A stretch of 64,000 bases of DNA from Candidatus Limimonas egerieequi (GTDB taxonomy: Bacteria; Bacillota; Clostridia; Oscillospirales; Acutalibacteraceae). The position numbers and the translations under genes were made by a program. Every line of letters starts with the position of its first letter. Positions within the stretch are counted from its first letter, which is position 1. Location: positions 1 through 64,000 of the forward strand of contig JAGHVH010000003.1 of NCBI GenBank assembly GCA_018064455.1, read 5' to 3'. Under the pieces are notes generated by a model. The model was not told the origin of the DNA. It did not search any database and was given only the letters and a program-made list of their open reading frames with translations. Shown one piece after another: positions 14,801-22,258 of the stretch.

Positions 14801-16288
14801 TTACTTGTGGAAGAGGGTGTTGGACTGGTACTCTGGCTCACAAGTGAGGTTGATGCCAAGCTTCTTGTAGATTTCGGCATCAACACTTGAAACGATGACT
14901 GTCGCATGGGCCTCGCAGCCGCGAAGGCCTGAGAGGCATTCCATCGCTTTGGCAGCATTCTTGTCAGTAGCCGCTGCGATGGAGAGCGCGATGAGCGTCT
15001 CGTCAGAGTGAAGGCGTGGATTCTTGCTGCCAAGTGTGTTGGTCTTGAGAGCCTGGATAGGCTCGAAAACCATAGGTGGAATGAGGTGTACCTCATCATT
15101 GATACCAGCAAGTTCCTTGAGTGCATTGAGAAGCACCGCTGAGCAGGAACCAAGCAAATCAGTTGTGCGACCAGTAACTATATGGCCGTTTGGAAGCTCG
15201 ATTGCTGCTGCTGGAAGTCCGCCAGTGTCGCGGGACTTGGCACAGGAAACAGCGATTACTTCACGATCATCCTTGGTAAGACCTGCCTGCTTTACTATCA
15301 TTTCAAGCTTCATTACAAGGTCGTTTTCTACAACGCCTTTCTTTTTATCGCAAAGGGCCTTGTAGTACCTGCGGATAATCTCTTGGTTGGCTGCTGCAAT
15401 ACATACATCGTCGTCGATGATGCAGTTACCTGCCATATTAACACCCATGTCTGTTGGTGATTTGTATGGTGACTCACCAGCAATTTCCTCAAAGATTGCA
15501 TTGAGGACTGGGAATACTTCAACATCACGGTTGTAGTTTACAGTTGTTTTACCATATGCCTCAAGGTGGAATGGGTCAATCATGTTGACGTCATCAAGGT
15601 CAGCTGTTGCTGCCTCATAGGCCAAGTTTACAGGATGCTTGAGTGGGAGATTCCAGATTGGGAATGTCTCGAACTTGGCATATCCTGATTTGATTCCACG
15701 CTTGTTGTCGTGGTAGAGCTGGGAGAGGCATGTTGCCATCTTGCCACTACCTGGGCCTGGTGCTGTGATGACTACAAGTTCACGAGTTGTATGAATGTAT
15801 TCGTTTTTGCCAAATCCCTCATCGGATACGATGAGAGGGATATTTGATGGATAACCATCAATTGGGTAATGGCGATATACGTCAACACCAAGGTTCTCAA
15901 GACGCTTCTTAAACGCATCGGCAGATGGTTGGCTCTGGTAACGTGTGAGTACTACGCTGCCAACATAGAGGCCGATGCTCTTGAATGCGTCGATAAGGCG
16001 AAGGATTTCAAGGTCGTAGGTGATACCTGTATCGCCGCGAACCTTGTTCTTTTCGATATCGCCAGCGTTGATTGCGATAACTATTTCTGCCTTGTCCTTG
16101 AGCTGAAGGAGCATCTGAAGCTTACTATCTGGTTTAAAACCAGGGAGAACACGTGAGGCATGGTAGTCATCGAAAAGCTTGCCACCAAACTCTAGGTAGA
16201 GTTTGCCACCAAAACTTTCAATACGCTTTGCAATATGCTCAGATTGTGTCTGAAGATATTTTTCGTTGTCGAATCCTATTTTGCCCAT
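14801..16288 (-). CDS. DUF1846 domain-containing protein (UPF0371)
   Basis: A 495-residue cytoplasmic protein of the DUF1846 family. Characteristic segments are IGFDNEKYLQTQSEHI at the N-terminus, AEIVIAINAGDIEKNKVRGD, and the P-loop-like VVITAPGPGSGKMATCLSQLYH. The C-terminal half contains LHSDETLIALSIAAATDKNA. The family is common in Firmicutes and has no firmly assigned reaction; a nucleotide-binding role is suggested by the glycine loop. The start at 16288 follows AGAGGT and lies inside the 3' end of the sortase gene, overlapping it by 13 bases, so the two are probably translated from one mRNA. Confidence 0.9.
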   Translation of the reverse strand: MGKIGFDNEKYLQTQSEHIAKRIESFGGKLYLEFGGKLFDDYHASRVLPGFKPDSKLQMLLQLKDKAEIVIAINAGDIEKNKVRGDTGITYDLEILRLIDAFKSIGLYVGSVVLTRYQSQPSADAFKKRLENLGVDVYRHYPIDGYPSNIPLIVSDEGFGKNEYIHTTRELVVITAPGPGSGKMATCLSQLYHDNKRGIKSGYAKFETFPIWNLPLKHPVNLAYEAATADLDDVNMIDPFHLEAYGKTTVNYNRDVEVFPVLNAIFEEIAGESPYKSPTDMGVNMAGNCIIDDDVCIAAANQEIIRRYYKALCDKKKGVVENDLVMKLEMIVKQAGLTKDDREVIAVSCAKSRDTGGLPAAAIELPNGHIVTGRTTDLLGSCSAVLLNALKELAGINDEVHLIPPMVFEPIQALKTNTLGSKNPRLHSDETLIALSIAAATDKNAAKAMECLSGLRGCEAHATVIVSSVDAEIYKKLGINLTCEPEYQSNTLFHK

Positions 16289-17007
16289 ACGGTTTTTACC
16301 TCTTTTGCTACGATTACAAACCTTTCGGTTTTTGTTCTACTTGTACATGTTGATAGGGTGATAAATTTCTCTTTGCCAGTAAATTTCATATCTGGCTTGT
16401 TACATTCAGCCCTGTCATAAATGTCCTCTATCCACTGCTTTTGCTCTTTGCTGTCGCTAAACTGGAACTTGTATATTGGATCAGTAATTTCAACAGTTAG
16501 AGCAGCGACGATTTGATATTGTTTTTCTGTGTCGCCGTAGAGGAGATATACGTTTGGATGTTGATTAAAGTAATTTGCATCCTTGTATTTTTTAAGTGAG
16601 CCAAACATCGCATCGTTTCGCGTGTTGTGGCCATAGATTACTGTGTTAGGGTCATCCATTGAACAGTAGTTGTCAATGAAAATACTACCAAAGTCTGAGT
16701 AGATGTTGTCGTATGTATGCTTTAGGTAGTACTGGTTGTTGTCAGGCTGAAGTACTGGATAGTCAACTGGTGTGTCCGGTATTTTTATCCAACCAACGAT
16801 GTCCTCGTTGGTCTTTTGAAGCTCAGTCAAATCAACTACAAAGTGGTAGTCCTTGTTCTCAGTGACTTCCTCAACCTTGTTTTGAACGCCCTCATAGAGC
16901 TGGTTGCCGCGGCGATAGTTTAGGCCGATTTTTATAAGCTGAGAGAGGGAGAATATAAAGAGAGCGATGAAGAGAACTTCAAGAATTGTATATAGGCGTT
17001 TCTTCAT
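16276..17007 (-). CDS. srtB: Class B sortase
   Basis: A 243-residue membrane-anchored transpeptidase that joins surface proteins to peptidoglycan or assembles pili. It has an N-terminal transmembrane helix (residues ~5-28) and the sortase barrel with catalytic His in VIYGHN, Cys in ITLSTC and Arg in TERFVIVA. The extra N-terminal helix and VGWIKIPDTPVDYPVLQ are class B features. The ORF-track start at 17022 is a TTG that translates the ribosome binding site itself; I chose ATG at 17007, preceded by GAGGAGGG. No obvious substrate with a sorting motif lies next to it. Confidence 0.92.
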   Translation of the reverse strand: MKKRLYTILEVLFIALFIFSLSQLIKIGLNYRRGNQLYEGVQNKVEEVTENKDYHFVVDLTELQKTNEDIVGWIKIPDTPVDYPVLQPDNNQYYLKHTYDNIYSDFGSIFIDNYCSMDDPNTVIYGHNTRNDAMFGSLKKYKDANYFNQHPNVYLLYGDTEKQYQIVAALTVEITDPIYKFQFSDSKEQKQWIEDIYDRAECNKPDMKFTGKEKFITLSTCTSRTKTERFVIVAKEVKTVWAK

Positions 17008-17140
17008 TTTATCCCTCCTCAAAATTACAGATTATTATATCATAAATTGGGGCGTCTTACCACTTTTTTTGGTACTTTATTTTTAACGTTATTAATATTA
17101 TAATTAATTATGTATATATTTATAAATCGAGGTTTACATT

Positions 17141-18343
17141 ATGCAAGCAAAAAGACTATCGCGTGTCTTGGCGCTCTTGCTTGTACTTTGTATGATGGTG
17201 CTTACCTTTACCGCCTGTGACGATAAGGAAGAGCCAACGCTTGAAACCACTGCAAAGTCAGACCTCACTACTGAATCTCAAAGCAAAGATTCGGACGAGA
17301 CGACAACGGGAGAAGATGCCAGTGAAAGCACAGGCTCTTATACGTCGGGCAAGTCCGATGGTGGCAAGTCCACAACCAAGAGTTCTGGTGGTAAGTCTAC
17401 TACCAAGAGTTCTGGTGGCGGAACAAAAACCACCAAAAAGAGTGGCGGAGGTTCAGGCAGTGGCGGTCAGCAACAGCCAAATACAACACAGCCAAAGCAG
17501 ACTGCAGCTCCAACAAAGCCAAAGTCAAATACTTACTATGCACCACAGGTTATTTATAACTCTGCACCGGGCACACTAGTTCAGACTTTCTCAGATGGTA
17601 GCGCAATCGACTATTCAAATACTGCTAGTGGATATGTAATGGTCAAGTACGCGGGACCACATTCCAACGTACGTGTCCAGATTACAGCACCAGGTGGCTC
17701 CAAGCCACTCTATCCTATTTTCTCAAGGGACTGGGAAGCATTGCCTCTTACAAACGGCAATGGTACATATTCAATAGCTCTTCTTGCAAATGATGGTGGT
17801 ACTTCATACACTGTTGCGGGCAAGCTTGACGTTCCTGTCACGCTCTCGTACTCAACAGTAGCTTTCTATAGACCAAACATTTTCTGTAATTACAGCGGTG
17901 GCACTGCGTGCGTTACATACGCCGCTGAGCTCACACGAGGCTGTGACACAGAGATGGCTAAAATTGAGGCAATCTACAACTACGTTGTAAACAATTTTAG
18001 GTATGACTATGGCAAGGCATCCTCAGTATCCTCATCGGCGTATGTTCCAAACCTCAATAGCATTTGGTCGTCAAAATCAGGAATCTGTTTTGACTACGCA
18101 TCGACGATGGCAGCAATGCTTAGAACACAGGGACTTCCAACAAAGGTCTGTGTTGGCTATGCAAATGGCAACACATATCACGCTTGGATTTCTGTATATG
18201 TTACAGGTAGTGGTTGGGTAAATGGTATTATCCAATTTAACGGTAACACATGGAAACTTATGGACCCAACATTTGCATCGACTGGTGGCAATAAGTATGA
18301 CTGGTCCACTAGGGGATCTTATTCAGTAATGTATTACTATTGA
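17141..18343 (+). CDS. Transglutaminase-like domain lipoprotein
   Basis: A 400-residue exported lipoprotein. The signal peptide ends in the lipobox LTFTAC, followed by a ~100-residue linker of Ser, Thr, Lys and Gly with short near-repeats (GGKSTTKSS), suited to crossing the cell wall. The C-terminal transglutaminase/protease-like domain shows the triad Cys in SGICFDYAS, His in YHAWISVYV and Asp in LMDPTFAS. Such domains hydrolyse or cross-link peptides; the substrate is unknown. It faces divergently away from sortase B and precedes the pilus-like operon by 17 bases, so it may be co-transcribed with it. Confidence 0.85.
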   Translation: MQAKRLSRVLALLLVLCMMVLTFTACDDKEEPTLETTAKSDLTTESQSKDSDETTTGEDASESTGSYTSGKSDGGKSTTKSSGGKSTTKSSGGGTKTTKKSGGGSGSGGQQQPNTTQPKQTAAPTKPKSNTYYAPQVIYNSAPGTLVQTFSDGSAIDYSNTASGYVMVKYAGPHSNVRVQITAPGGSKPLYPIFSRDWEALPLTNGNGTYSIALLANDGGTSYTVAGKLDVPVTLSYSTVAFYRPNIFCNYSGGTACVTYAAELTRGCDTEMAKIEAIYNYVVNNFRYDYGKASSVSSSAYVPNLNSIWSSKSGICFDYASTMAAMLRTQGLPTKVCVGYANGNTYHAWISVYVTGSGWVNGIIQFNGNTWKLMDPTFASTGGNKYDWSTRGSYSVMYYY

Positions 18344-18360: not shown

Positions 18361-19404
18361 ATGAGTATAAAACAGCTTGATGGACCTTATCTTTCATCAT
18401 TTTGCATGGAACTCTCACTCTGCCTTAAAGCAGGTATCTCACTCAATGAGGGCCTCTTTATGCTCGCACAGGATGAGACAGATAAGGATTTAAAAGAGAT
18501 GCTCTCTTCACTCTACGAGAAGATGGACGGCGGTATGAGTCTTGAAGAGGCATTAGGTGAGGCAGGATGCTTCCCTAAGTATTTGGTAGAAATGATCGAG
18601 ATTGGTTCTCGTACAGGTAGACTTGAAGCAGTGCTTCGTGCACTTTCAGCTTACTACACAAGACAGGTTGAAATTACAAGAAGCATCAAGAGTGCAGTTG
18701 TATATCCTCTTGTTTTGATGTTTATGTTGCTTCTTGTTATTGGCGTACTTATCACAAAGGTACTCCCAATCTTTAACGATGTATTCCATGAACTTGGCGC
18801 AGAGATGAGCCCAGTTGCAATAAGCATCATGAACTTTGGTACTGGTATTACAAAGTATGCAGCAATTATCCTTGCAGTAGTTGTTGTAATTGCAATCGTT
18901 GCAATCTTTATCAGCGCAGTACCTAGTCTTTCACTTAAGTTTGTAAACTTCTTTAGCAAAATTACATCTAACAGAAAAATCTCTAAAAAGATTGCATCTG
19001 CACGTTTTGCAAACGGTATGGCAATGACACTTGCATCTGGTCTTGATACAGATGAGTCACTTGACATGGTAGAGCGCATCACAGATAACCCTGTAATGCT
19101 TGGCCGTATTGCAAAGTGCCGTGAACTTATGAAGCAGGGCGAACTCTTCGTAGACGCCATTGCAAAGTCCGAGATATTTAACTCTATGTACTGCCGTATG
19201 CTTTCAATCGGTTTCAAGACTGGTACAGCAGACACAGTAATGGATGAGATTGCTCACCGCAGCGAGGCTGAGGTTGACGAGAATATCGAGTCAATTATCA
19301 ACAAGGTTGAGCCAACACTTGTTATCATTATGTCACTTGTAGTTGGTCTTATCCTTCTTTCAGTAATGCTCCCACTTATGAGCATCATGACCACAATAGG
19401 TTAA
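18361..19404 (+). CDS. Type II secretion/type IV pilus inner-membrane protein GspF/PilC
   Basis: A 347-residue polytopic membrane protein with two T2SSF domains, each followed by hydrophobic helices: FCMELSLCLKAGISLNEGL opens the first and ASARFANGMAMTLASGLDTDESL the second. It forms the membrane platform on which pilins or pseudopilins are assembled, driven by a cytoplasmic ATPase. It is the first gene of a tightly coupled cluster ending with a PilT-like ATPase. AAAGGAG precedes the ATG. It lacks the N-terminal cytoplasmic extension seen in some longer PilC proteins. Confidence 0.9.
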   Translation: MSIKQLDGPYLSSFCMELSLCLKAGISLNEGLFMLAQDETDKDLKEMLSSLYEKMDGGMSLEEALGEAGCFPKYLVEMIEIGSRTGRLEAVLRALSAYYTRQVEITRSIKSAVVYPLVLMFMLLLVIGVLITKVLPIFNDVFHELGAEMSPVAISIMNFGTGITKYAAIILAVVVVIAIVAIFISAVPSLSLKFVNFFSKITSNRKISKKIASARFANGMAMTLASGLDTDESLDMVERITDNPVMLGRIAKCRELMKQGELFVDAIAKSEIFNSMYCRMLSIGFKTGTADTVMDEIAHRSEAEVDENIESIINKVEPTLVIIMSLVVGLILLSVMLPLMSIMTTIG

Positions 19405-19425
19405 ATTTCTAAGGAGTAAGAATAT

Positions 19426-19773
19426 ATGGAAACTAAAGTAAGGAAGCGCTCGGCGTTTGAAATAATACGTGGGCATCTCCTATCTATAGTGTTCTTCGTA
19501 GTCATTTTTGCATTCTTTATCTACGGCGTAAATAGCGCCGAGAAGAACTCCGCATCGGAGAGCAAAAATGTACTGGAAGAAAGCCTCCATAAAGCAGTAG
19601 TTTCCTGCTATGCGCTTGAGGGTGCCTACCCATCAAGCGTGCAGTACCTTGAGGACCACTACGGCTTAACTTATGACAAAGATAAGTATGCAATAGGCTA
19701 TGTCGCATTTGCCGACAACATTATGCCTGACATGCAAATCATTGATTTAAGTGAGGAGGTACCCGCAGAATGA
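19426..19773 (+). CDS. Small membrane-anchored pilus-cluster protein
   Basis: A 115-residue protein with a basic N-terminus (KVRKRSAFEIIRGH) and one transmembrane helix at residues ~15-35, followed by an extracellular part of ~80 residues containing one cysteine and an AYPSSVQYLEDHYGL segment. That part resembles the C-terminal end of pilin-like proteins in which a short helix is followed by a processed-sequence loop. No canonical prepilin cleavage motif (G before FTLIE) is seen. By position it is a minor pseudopilin or assembly factor. It overlaps the next gene by ATGA. Confidence 0.6.
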   Translation: METKVRKRSAFEIIRGHLLSIVFFVVIFAFFIYGVNSAEKNSASESKNVLEESLHKAVVSCYALEGAYPSSVQYLEDHYGLTYDKDKYAIGYVAFADNIMPDMQIIDLSEEVPAE

Positions 19774-20267
19774 AAAAGAGAACTGCTTACACAGTAGATA
19801 CAATATTTGTGTTGGTTCTCTTTGCAGTATTCGCTATCACAGTACTCTTTGTACTTATGAGCGGAGCGGGTGTCTATAAGGACACGCAGAGCGTTATGAC
19901 AGAGAGATATCAAGAACGCACATGTCTCTCATATATAACAGCAAAGGTCAACCATTACGACGAGGCTGGCAAGGTCTATGTAGTCGATGTAAACGGCGTA
20001 CAGGCACTTGCAGTTGACGAGGAAATGGGTGGAACCACATACACAACATATATCTACTGCACCGATGGTTCGGTGAAGGAGATAATGGTTGAAAAGGCAG
20101 CATCATTTGAACTTGATGATGGCCTTGATATCATTGCAGCAAAGAAGCTCAAGTTTGAGACAAAAGATAACCTCCTTAAGGTTATCTGTACTGGCGAGAC
20201 GGGTAAAACCGCTTTCGTCACCCTCCATGTTGCATCAGGAATAGGAGGTGGCGAGATTGAAGACTAA
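19770..20267 (+). CDS. DUF4860-like pilus-cluster protein
   Basis: A 165-residue protein with a single N-terminal transmembrane helix (TVDTIFVLVLFAVFAITVLFV) and a beta-rich outer part with two conserved cysteines (TCLSYI, IYCTDG). It resembles the DUF4860 proteins found in clostridial type IV pilus-like clusters. A minor pseudopilin role is inferred from location and topology. A GAGGAGG site inside the preceding gene supports the ATG at 19770. It overlaps the next gene by 11 bases. Confidence 0.6.
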   Translation: MKKRTAYTVDTIFVLVLFAVFAITVLFVLMSGAGVYKDTQSVMTERYQERTCLSYITAKVNHYDEAGKVYVVDVNGVQALAVDEEMGGTTYTTYIYCTDGSVKEIMVEKAASFELDDGLDIIAAKKLKFETKDNLLKVICTGETGKTAFVTLHVASGIGGGEIED

Positions 20268-20691
20268 CAAAAGATCTAAGTCATCACTCTTCCTTATGGA
20301 GATAATCATAGTTTTGATGTTCTTCGCACTTTCAGCAGCTATTTGTATGAAGGTGTTCTCAAGCGCCAAAGTTAAAACTGAACTCTCTCGCGATATGACA
20401 AATGCAAGTTTTGCAGCAGAGAGTATCGCAGAGGCTTGGAAGGCAGATAAACTTGATGGAACAGACTTTGCCTCAATCTATCCAAACTCAACTGAACATG
20501 ATGGAATTATCACTGTGTTCTATGATAAGGATTGGACCCTTGAGGAAAAATATCAGGGCGCTTATCACGCAACCATAGAGGAGCACGCTGACAAGTACTT
20601 CGTACAGGCACATGTTGCCGTATACGACGACTCTGGCGCATTGCTCTTTGATATGGTTACTGCTGTGAGCCCAGACAAGGGGGTAGAGTAA
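20257..20691 (+). CDS. Pilin-like membrane protein of the pilus cluster
   Basis: A 144-residue protein with a type IV pilin-like N-terminus: basic residues, then FLMEIIIVLMFFALSAAICMKVF, where a glutamate near the start of the hydrophobic helix recalls Glu5 of pilins. The outer domain is ~110 residues. I chose the TTG at 20257 because AGGAGG ends eight bases upstream; the track's GTG at 20248 lies within that site. No classic prepilin peptidase site precedes the glutamate, so processing is uncertain. Its stop overlaps the next ATG (TAATG). Confidence 0.6.
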   Translation: MKTNKRSKSSLFLMEIIIVLMFFALSAAICMKVFSSAKVKTELSRDMTNASFAAESIAEAWKADKLDGTDFASIYPNSTEHDGIITVFYDKDWTLEEKYQGAYHATIEEHADKYFVQAHVAVYDDSGALLFDMVTAVSPDKGVE

Positions 20692-21146
20692 TGGAACAGA
20701 ATGAACGCAAGTCATCCGGTATCAATATCGGTAGTGCAAGTATCATAATGGTCTTCTCCGTACTTTGCCTCACAATCTTTGCAGTGCTTACCTTTATGAC
20801 ATCAAACAACGAGTACAAGCTCGCTGAGAAGTCTGCACTTACAATGCAGACGTACTACGCAGCAGATGCTGGTGCTGTTGTTACAGAAGGCAAGATAAGA
20901 GAGGCATTGGCAAACAATGGTGACGCCGCAAGCGCACTAAATGACGTCAAGGGACTTGGCGTTGCTGGTGCAGCAATGGACGACGGATACCACTTCAGCT
21001 ATGCTGAAAGCATGGATGATGATCAGGAAATTCAAGTTGAGCTCCTCTATACAGATGGCGAACTCAAGATTCTCAAGTGGGAACTTGTTAATGTCGCAGA
21101 GTGGAGCGCAGACGGTGAAGTACATCTTTGGGATGGTGAGTTTTAA
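20691..21146 (+). CDS. PilX-like minor pilus-cluster protein
   Basis: A 151-residue protein with an N-terminal transmembrane helix (SASIIMVFSVLCLTIFAVLTF) followed by the helix segment LTMQTYYAADAGAVVTEGKI. The YYAADAG signature resembles the N-terminal region of PilX/GspK-type minor pilins, which cap or seed pilus assembly. The start overlaps the preceding stop by one base, and the stop overlaps the ATPase start likewise, so stoichiometry is probably fixed by translational coupling. Confidence 0.65.
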   Translation: MEQNERKSSGINIGSASIIMVFSVLCLTIFAVLTFMTSNNEYKLAEKSALTMQTYYAADAGAVVTEGKIREALANNGDAASALNDVKGLGVAGAAMDDGYHFSYAESMDDDQEIQVELLYTDGELKILKWELVNVAEWSADGEVHLWDGEF

Positions 21147-22210
21147 TGGAATTATTAACACTTCTTCGCGGTGCAGTTGAACAGCAGGCATCGGATATCT
21201 TTGTCCTTGCCAGCCTTCCTCTTTCATACAAACTCAACGGCATTATTGTGCCACAGGATGAGGAACGTATGACTCCGCAGACAACTCGCGCACTTATAGA
21301 GGAAATATATGATACAGCAGGACGTCCTATGGATCACCTTTTAGCATCAGGTGACGACGATTTCTCGCTCGCTATCAGCGGTCTCTCTCGTTTCAGAGTA
21401 AGCACATACAAGCAGCGTGGTTCACTCGCTGCTGTTATCCGTCTGGTTTCATTTGATATCCCAAATTACAAGGATTTGGGCATTCCAGATTCTGTTATGT
21501 CTATCGCTGAAAAGACAAAGGGCCTTGTACTTGTAACTGGCCCTGCAGGCGGTGGTAAGTCAACCACACTTGCTTGTATCATCGATAGGATTAACAAGAC
21601 AAGAAACGGTCACATCATCACACTTGAGGAACCGCTTGAGTACCTCCATCGCAATGATAAATGCGTAATCTCACAGCGTGAGATTGGTTCTGACTCAGCT
21701 GACTACGTAGCTGCACTTCGTGCATGCCTCCGTCAGGCTCCAGATGTTATCCTTGTTGGTGAGATGCGTGACTATGAGACTATCAAGACAGCTATGACCG
21801 CTGCTGAGACAGGACACCTTGTCATCTCAACACTCCACACCGTTGGTGCTGCTAATACAATCGACCGTGTTATCGATGTATTCCCACCTAATCAGCAACA
21901 GCAGATTAGGGTACAGCTCGCACAGCTTTTGCAGTGCGTTGTATCTCAGCAGCTCATCCCAACTGTTGATGGATCACTTGTACCAGCGTTTGAGGTCATG
22001 AACCTCAATAGCGCAATTCGAAATATGATCCGTGAGTCAAAGGTACATCAAATAGACTCAATCATTGCGACATCAGCTGCCGAAGGCATGGTCGCAATGG
22101 ATTCAAGTATATTTGATCTCTATGACCAGGGAATCATATCCGAAATGAACGCTATTAAGTTTGCATCAAACGCTGATCTTCTCAAGAAAAAGATGCAGAT
22201 GAAAAAGTAA
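21146..22210 (+). CDS. pilT: PilT/PilU-like type IV pilus ATPase
   Basis: A 354-residue hexameric secretion ATPase. It has the Walker A loop VTGPAGGGKSTT, the Asp box region ITLEEPLEYLH, Walker B ILVGEMRDYET, the His box TGHLVISTLHT and the PilT-specific AIRNMIRESK motif. In known systems PilT powers pilus retraction, whereas assembly needs a PilB/GspE ATPase, which is absent from this cluster. Either an assembly ATPase is encoded elsewhere or this enzyme drives assembly as well. It is the last gene of the operon and is followed by a 15-bp terminator. Confidence 0.92.
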   Translation: MELLTLLRGAVEQQASDIFVLASLPLSYKLNGIIVPQDEERMTPQTTRALIEEIYDTAGRPMDHLLASGDDDFSLAISGLSRFRVSTYKQRGSLAAVIRLVSFDIPNYKDLGIPDSVMSIAEKTKGLVLVTGPAGGGKSTTLACIIDRINKTRNGHIITLEEPLEYLHRNDKCVISQREIGSDSADYVAALRACLRQAPDVILVGEMRDYETIKTAMTAAETGHLVISTLHTVGAANTIDRVIDVFPPNQQQQIRVQLAQLLQCVVSQQLIPTVDGSLVPAFEVMNLNSAIRNMIRESKVHQIDSIIATSAAEGMVAMDSSIFDLYDQGIISEMNAIKFASNADLLKKKMQMKK

Positions 22211-22220
22211 GATAAAATAG

Positions 22221-22258
22221 AAAACTCCTGACTAGAAAACTAGTCAGGAGTTTTGTTT
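22221..22258. terminator. Bidirectional terminator
   Basis: A perfect 15-bp stem, AAAACTCCTGACTAG and its complement, with an AAAA loop lies between the convergent pilT and PAS-like genes, with T-rich tails on both sides. Confidence 0.9.

Follow-up and report, generated by a model that had tools for sequence, protein, structure and literature searches.

Type IV filaments share four universal parts, namely pilins, a prepilin peptidase, an extension ATPase, and a platform protein (PMC10790768). Described systems include the Com pilus of Bacilli, a minimal type IV filament made from ComGA–ComGG and ComC; the type IVa pilus, with its antagonistic pair of PilB and PilT; the type II secretion pseudopilus, formed from GspG–K with GspE and GspF; and the Tad pilus. 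PilT acts as the retraction motor in known systems. Here we describe an operon of seven genes located in a 64,000-nucleotide stretch of DNA from Candidatus Limimonas egerieequi (assembly GCA_018064455.1, contig JAGHVH010000003.1, positions 1 to 64,000 of the forward strand), referred to below as the window. The operon encodes a transglutaminase-like lipoprotein, a platform protein (PilC), four small membrane-anchored proteins (sA to sD), and a dedicated PilT-family ATPase (PilT2), and is found in many genomes that contain neither PilB nor a match to the A24 prepilin peptidases. The operon probably represents a hitherto undescribed variant within the type IV filament family. No description of the operon, of a peptidase-free system, or of a transglutaminase combined with PilC/PilT was found in the open-access literature, an absence that is not proof, and a search of the same literature found no paper on DUF4860, the family of sB.

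Organization and conservation of the operon

The open reading frames of the window place the seven genes on the forward strand in the order transglutaminase-like lipoprotein, PilC, sA, sB, sC, sD, PilT2. The first gene product (17141–18343) matches Pfam Transglut_core at 2e-21 and contains a lipobox-like LTFTAC sequence. The stop of this gene is separated by 17 nucleotides from a short platform protein of the PilC/GspF type (18361–19404; 347 amino acids; Pfam T2SSF, 3.5e-45), and a gap of 21 nucleotides leads to sA (19426–19773), a small membrane-anchored protein with an invariant CY..EG.YP core that belongs to no Pfam family. The pilin-like sB (19770–20267) is a DUF4860 protein (PF16152, 5.2e-29); sC (20248–20691) is pilin-like and resembles GspI/PilV, with an invariant Glu5 and, in this genome, Ser at −1; and sD (20691–21146), the last of the pilin-like proteins, resembles ComGG/GspK. 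PilT2 (21146–22210; TIGR01420, 1.9e-123) completes the series. The junctions from sA onward overlap by 4, 20, 1, and 1 nucleotides, and the least secure start call in the cluster is the GTG of sC. A preliminary description of this DNA had recognized a GspF platform, four small anchored proteins without a classic prepilin motif, and a PilT ATPase with an AIRNMIRE-like motif, joined by overlapping junctions from the second gene on; open reading frames, profiles, and motifs agree with that account. It had also noted the absence from the cluster of PilB/GspE, PilD, PilM/N/O, and a secretin, and the open reading frames together with Pfam and NCBIfam profiles likewise revealed none of these inside the cluster.

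The operon is widespread and is inherited as a unit. A profile of sA had matches in 82 of the 395 genomes that represent the order, from 47 genera, and scanning GTDB species genomes with a pattern gave at least 468 confirmed loci, hosted by Lachnospiraceae, Oscillospiraceae, other Clostridia, and Chloroflexota (Flexilinea). Candidatus Limimonas is among the near relatives of the window, and the operon also occurs in Blautia, Butyrivibrio, Roseburia, Enterocloster, and Anaerotignum, all of them common in the gut. A survey of gene order, which the preliminary description had proposed along with a phylogeny of the ATPase and a genome search for PilB and PilD, found the exact seven-gene order in 81 of 114 loci from Clostridia and Chloroflexota. 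Comparison with the closest relative gives dN/dS values of 0.04–0.21 for PilC, sA, sB, and sC, which indicates purifying selection. Because of this conserved order and purifying selection, the cluster cannot be attributed to chance. A further 14 of the 114 loci lack the ATPase alone, and several of these adjoin rpoC. In one Lachnospiraceae group (L184, L186, L222, L223, L231) rpoC is the neighbor of the operon, from which the ATPase has been lost. Five Lachnospiraceae genomes with an operon devoid of PilT2 contain no PilB but do contain an ATPase of the PilT type that belongs to the canonical clade and is not linked to the operon. In Flexilinea flocculi (L169, Chloroflexota) the operon ATPase is nested among Clostridia sequences, a placement that suggests horizontal transfer.

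PilT2 scored 412 bits against TIGR01420, the PilT/PilU model, for which the cut-off is 319, and its Walker A, Walker B, Asp box, His box, and AIRNMIRE motifs are all intact. Its top match in the PDB is the PilT of Aquifex (8.8e-96). In a quick phylogenetic tree the operon ATPases formed one clade within the PilT family, apart from canonical PilTs (SH-aLRT 100); two labels in this clade that appeared to be non-operon sequences proved to be the same operon genes fetched twice. A second PilT of this genome, encoded away from the window on another contig (C3), falls outside the operon clade and is 51% identical to PilT2. The direction in which PilT2 works, whether extension, retraction, or both, cannot be read from sequence, and we infer both the direction and the cellular role.

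Genomes that lack PilB and prepilin peptidase

We examined 80 operon-bearing genomes (79 from the survey plus G035) for ATPases of the T2SSE family and for A24 prepilin peptidases (PF01478). PilB was present in 33 of the 80, and all 33 also gave an A24 match, although that of G275 fell below the curated cut-off. The T2SSE search found no PilB in the remaining 47, and 35 of the 80 had neither PilB nor any A24 match. Exactly one T2SSE-type ATPase, of the PilT type, was found in 28 of these 35 genomes, which span 24 genera and 13 families. This sole ATPase was the operon's own in all 25 genomes that could be checked (24 by position and G155 by gene order); the three others (G098, G143, G252) are included on the ATPase count alone. 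Completeness was at least 90% in 27 of the 28, and two (G164 and G416) are closed genomes consisting of a single contig with 99% completeness, so missing data cannot account for the single-ATPase pattern. An ATPase search also found no PilB in Anaerotignum sp. MB30-C6 (complete), Lachnospiraceae bacterium CE91-St61 (complete), Drancourtella massiliensis, and F. flocculi, where the only ATPases were that of the operon and Tad/VirB11-like proteins. These data support the proposal of the preliminary description that the operon encodes a streamlined machine driven by a PilT-like enzyme. Its wording that this enzyme powers assembly goes further than the data, since the motor may work by disassembly or pulling instead.

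Five genomes gave no T2SSE match. Four of them belong to one genus (G036, G140, G186, G192) and have PilC, sA, sB, sC, and sD with neither PilT2 nor the transglutaminase-like gene in the stretch examined (locus L042 in G036); in the fifth, G085, a contig boundary truncates the operon.

The four small proteins

We scored a strict prepilin motif, defined as Gly or Ala, four residues, Glu or Asp, and then an uncharged stretch. It was present in 0 of 114 sA, 3 of 114 sB, 24 of 113 sC, and 0 of 110 sD sequences; sA and sD thus have no prepilin site. Most sB members have an Asp near the Glu5 position. In sC the Glu at the Glu5 position is found in 113 of 113 homologues, with Gly at −1 in 18 of the 113, and the leader in the window reads S|LFLME, with Glu5 present and Ser at −1. 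Among 20 sC loci from peptidase-less genomes, two have Gly at −1, one has Ala, and two have Ser; in the other 15 this residue is Thr, Pro, Val, Leu, Arg, Asp, Asn, or Glu. The pilin-like proteins of the operon do not conform to the class III leader, which combines Gly or Ala at −1 with Glu5.

Structure predictions of sB and sC show the lollipop architecture of type IV pilins, with Foldseek matches that fall short of significance. The AlphaFold2 model of sB (pLDDT 91) has one N-terminal helix of 59 residues followed by eight strands, and its top-probability Foldseek neighbor is the GspJ pseudopilin XcpW (0.97), a lead only since E=0.16; sB is possibly GspJ/ComGF-like. The model of sC (pLDDT 92) has a helix of 60 residues and a five-stranded domain, and hhalign aligned sC with the genome's own PilV-like prepilin at a probability of 57% with the Glu in register. 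Searches of Pfam and NCBIfam with all sC members returned no pilin family, and profiles of sA to sD found nothing significant in the PDB, the best match for sC being the pilin PilE1 at E=0.047. The NCBIfam ComGG model was matched by 6 of 53 sD homologues (best 1.4e-4). Glu5 is absent from sD, and a Gly within its hydrophobic helix is invariant; the capping K subunit of type IV filaments also lacks Glu5 (PMC10790768). Neither sB nor sD showed credible similarity to the genome's own minor pilins. No protein in the cluster matched ComGC, leaving sA as the sole candidate for a major pilin, and sA is the weakest assignment of the four. We infer from these features that sA to sD make up an H-I-J-K-like set of minor pilins with no major pilin.

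Relation to the canonical pilus of the same organism

The assembly of this genome comprises 1.7 Mb in 46 contigs and is 86% complete. The search for PilB and PilD located both on other contigs, PilB on C28 and PilD together with two canonical prepilins on C24; two further prepilins lie close to one end of C9, and C31 carries a Tad locus. T2SSF matches in this genome come from the window and the Tad locus only. The platform protein of the operon has no N-terminal extension, like ComGB, the GspF model being matched from position 65, and it is 25–28% identical to the canonical PilCs of the genus, which have about 401 amino acids. In a PilC tree one operon PilC (L141) was not cleanly apart from three canonical PilCs, and we do not claim monophyly for the operon PilCs.

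We considered whether the PilC of the window might be the only one of this genome and belong to a canonical pilus with scattered genes. This was rejected: near-complete relatives have a second, longer PilC near pilB. In the same-genus genomes G007 and G004 the window operon is accompanied by a separate, complete canonical pil locus with pilD, a pilC of about 401 amino acids, pilM/N/O-like genes (so named on position and size, with no profile match), three prepilin-type genes, and pilB. The long PilC and PilM/N/O are probably missing here due to contig breaks at that locus (C28, C24, C9). Since both relatives carry a complete canonical locus besides the operon, the window cluster represents a second module, which brings a platform and an ATPase of its own; in this organism it exists alongside a Tad system and a canonical type IV pilus encoded separately. 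The possibility that the cluster is a split part of a standard pil set, which the preliminary description had regarded as fatal to its proposal, is not borne out: the standard set exists in relatives, and the cluster is additional to it.

Several genes were observed near the canonical pilus genes of this genome. On C24 (L014, 1671–3014) a Wzy_C-family, O-antigen-ligase-like gene lies between the two canonical prepilin genes and adjoins PilD; it is weakly similar to the pilin oligosaccharyltransferase TfpM, which suggests pilin glycosylation in this monoderm. A minor-pilin set on C9 (L049, 6435–11109) comprises a PilX-like protein of 545 amino acids, a prepilin of 132 amino acids, and a protein of 866 amino acids with a prepilin leader; this last protein resembles a fusion between a pilin and a large tip adhesin. 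On C28 (L011, 10935–11330) a PBECR3 nuclease-like protein (phage-Barnase/EndoU/ColicinE5/D/RelE type) adjoins pilB.

The transglutaminase-like lipoprotein and flanking features

The transglutaminase-like gene is present in 105 of the 114 loci, and each residue of its Cys-His-Asp triad is conserved in 100–104 of the 105 proteins. The lipoprotein is a member of the operon, and conserved gene order supports the view of the preliminary description that it is a partner of the other products. We also considered this enzyme as a stand-in for the prepilin peptidase and rejected the idea on topology, the enzyme being a predicted exported lipoprotein and the leader probably cytoplasmic.

A 15-bp stem-loop at 22221–22254 (no strand assigned), detected by a consensus scan only, follows the ATPase stop and is a probable terminator. 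In most same-genus loci examined the operon is divergently adjoined by a class B sortase (16276–17022, reverse strand) and has as a further divergent neighbor a conserved protein of about 495 amino acids (14801–16288, reverse strand). A transcriptional regulator with a BTAD/SARP-like N-terminus is often found upstream (L041, 4088–5284, and 15 other loci), and response-regulator-like genes recur near the operon.

Interpretation of the operon

The reading we lean towards, with slightly more confidence than doubt, is that the operon encodes a self-contained minimal machine like a type IV filament, in which an unprocessed pseudopilus would be driven by a dedicated PilT-type motor. The proteins sA to sD would be the counterparts of the tip complex that other type IV filaments build from H, J, I, and K subunits (ComGD/GF/GE/GG). 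Their cytoplasmic leaders would be retained and, with no separate major pilin, the four would form a short pseudopilus held in the membrane and cell wall. PilT2 would rotate PilC and so drive assembly of the pseudopilus by insertion, withdrawal, or both, and the transglutaminase-like enzyme would receive or transmit this work at the cell surface as the effector, the most likely effect being that this enzyme is positioned, released, or activated in the cell wall. A further proposal, on which our judgment is evenly divided, is that this lineage, lacking extension ATPase and prepilin peptidase, has a non-extending, membrane-anchored complex of unprocessed subunits coupled by a PilT-clade motor to a surface transglutaminase-like enzyme, and would thus be a rotary envelope machine that builds no pilus.

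Several observations weigh against the self-contained machine. Known PilT proteins retract, so that a sole PilT-type assembly motor needs either a bifunctional enzyme or passive assembly, and the four one-genus genomes with PilC and sA to sD but no T2SSE ATPase indicate that operons can lose their motor. No Foldseek match reached significance (best E about 0.05–0.08), and in the search with sC no pilin was among the best 50 matches listed. For sA there is no demonstrated pilin homology, nor any similarity to a canonical pilin of the same genome with which it was compared. The evidence for a role of the transglutaminase-like enzyme is gene order only.

Part of this evidence would fit a retraction-only winch, in which the pseudopilus forms passively or at membrane insertion and PilT2 just disassembles or pulls it, for example in ligand uptake or to exert tension on the cell wall. 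The ATPase is of the retracting PilT type, not PilB, and the four genomes without such an ATPase look as though assembly were independent of the motor. We nonetheless consider this explanation rather unlikely, as PilT is also able to promote extension, as in the MSHA pilus (PMC9815625), and Tad systems are known to work with one bifunctional motor (see the discussion in PMC6668835). A lower probability still attaches to the view that the filament is an ordinary one of type IV and that unrecognized, highly divergent proteins serve as its peptidase and extension motor. Profiles can overlook small signal-peptidase families, and a minority of species keep Gly or Ala at −1 of sC; however, the A24 profile matched every PilB-bearing genome, the −1 residue is not conserved, and Walker ATPases of this superfamily are readily detected.

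The preliminary description had offered as its other option an accessory module for a pilus encoded elsewhere. In that case the operon would supply minor pilins and a platform to a canonical type IV or Tad pilus, where they could serve for instance as a different tip or as a unit for retraction. This genome and many relatives do contain PilB, PilD, and canonical pilins. The idea is nevertheless disfavored and, in our estimate, improbable, given the 35 operon genomes with neither PilB nor A24 peptidase and a canonical locus in relatives that comes with a PilC, M, N, O, and minor pilins of its own. Absence of cleavage motifs and of an extension ATPase might also be expected if a comG- or pil-type operon had lost its function and were decaying, but gene order is kept across families and phyla, dN/dS values are low, and the motifs of the ATPase and the enzyme are intact, making decay very improbable indeed. 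If the self-contained machine is the correct reading, extension ATPase and prepilin peptidase are not essential for type IV filament-like machines, and the operon offers a natural test case for what a lone PilT-type motor can do.

Comparison with known systems

Measured against the four universal parts, the stand-alone genomes contain the platform, lack the extension ATPase and the peptidase, and have pilin-like subunits without the processing motif. With the Com pilus the operon shares a short ComGB-like platform and four small pilin-like genes, the last without Glu5 and in some cases matching ComGG. It differs in that many of the genomes have neither a ComGA-type extension ATPase nor ComC; the operon has no evident canonical major pilin, its leaders are non-canonical, and in place of the missing parts it encodes an ATPase of the PilT type and the transglutaminase-like lipoprotein. 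PilC and PilT homologues are features in common with the type IVa pilus, but the stand-alone genomes need no PilB, PilD, PilM/N/O, or processed pilins, and the ATPase forms a separate PilT clade. The antagonistic motor pair is also missing, the operon having PilT2 alone and 47 of 80 genomes having no PilB. The type II secretion pseudopilus is similar in its GspF-like platform and its possible GspJ-, GspI-, and K-like subunits, and may likewise remain short, whereas the operon has no GspE, GspO, GspL/M, or secretin and its hosts are monoderm. With the Tad pilus it has the single-motor principle in common; the ATPase (TadA) and platform (TadB/C) of that system are different, and a separate Tad locus is present in this genome. 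Homology places the operon near the Com pilus, the type IVa pilus, and the type II secretion system, and its defining parts make it a member of none of them.

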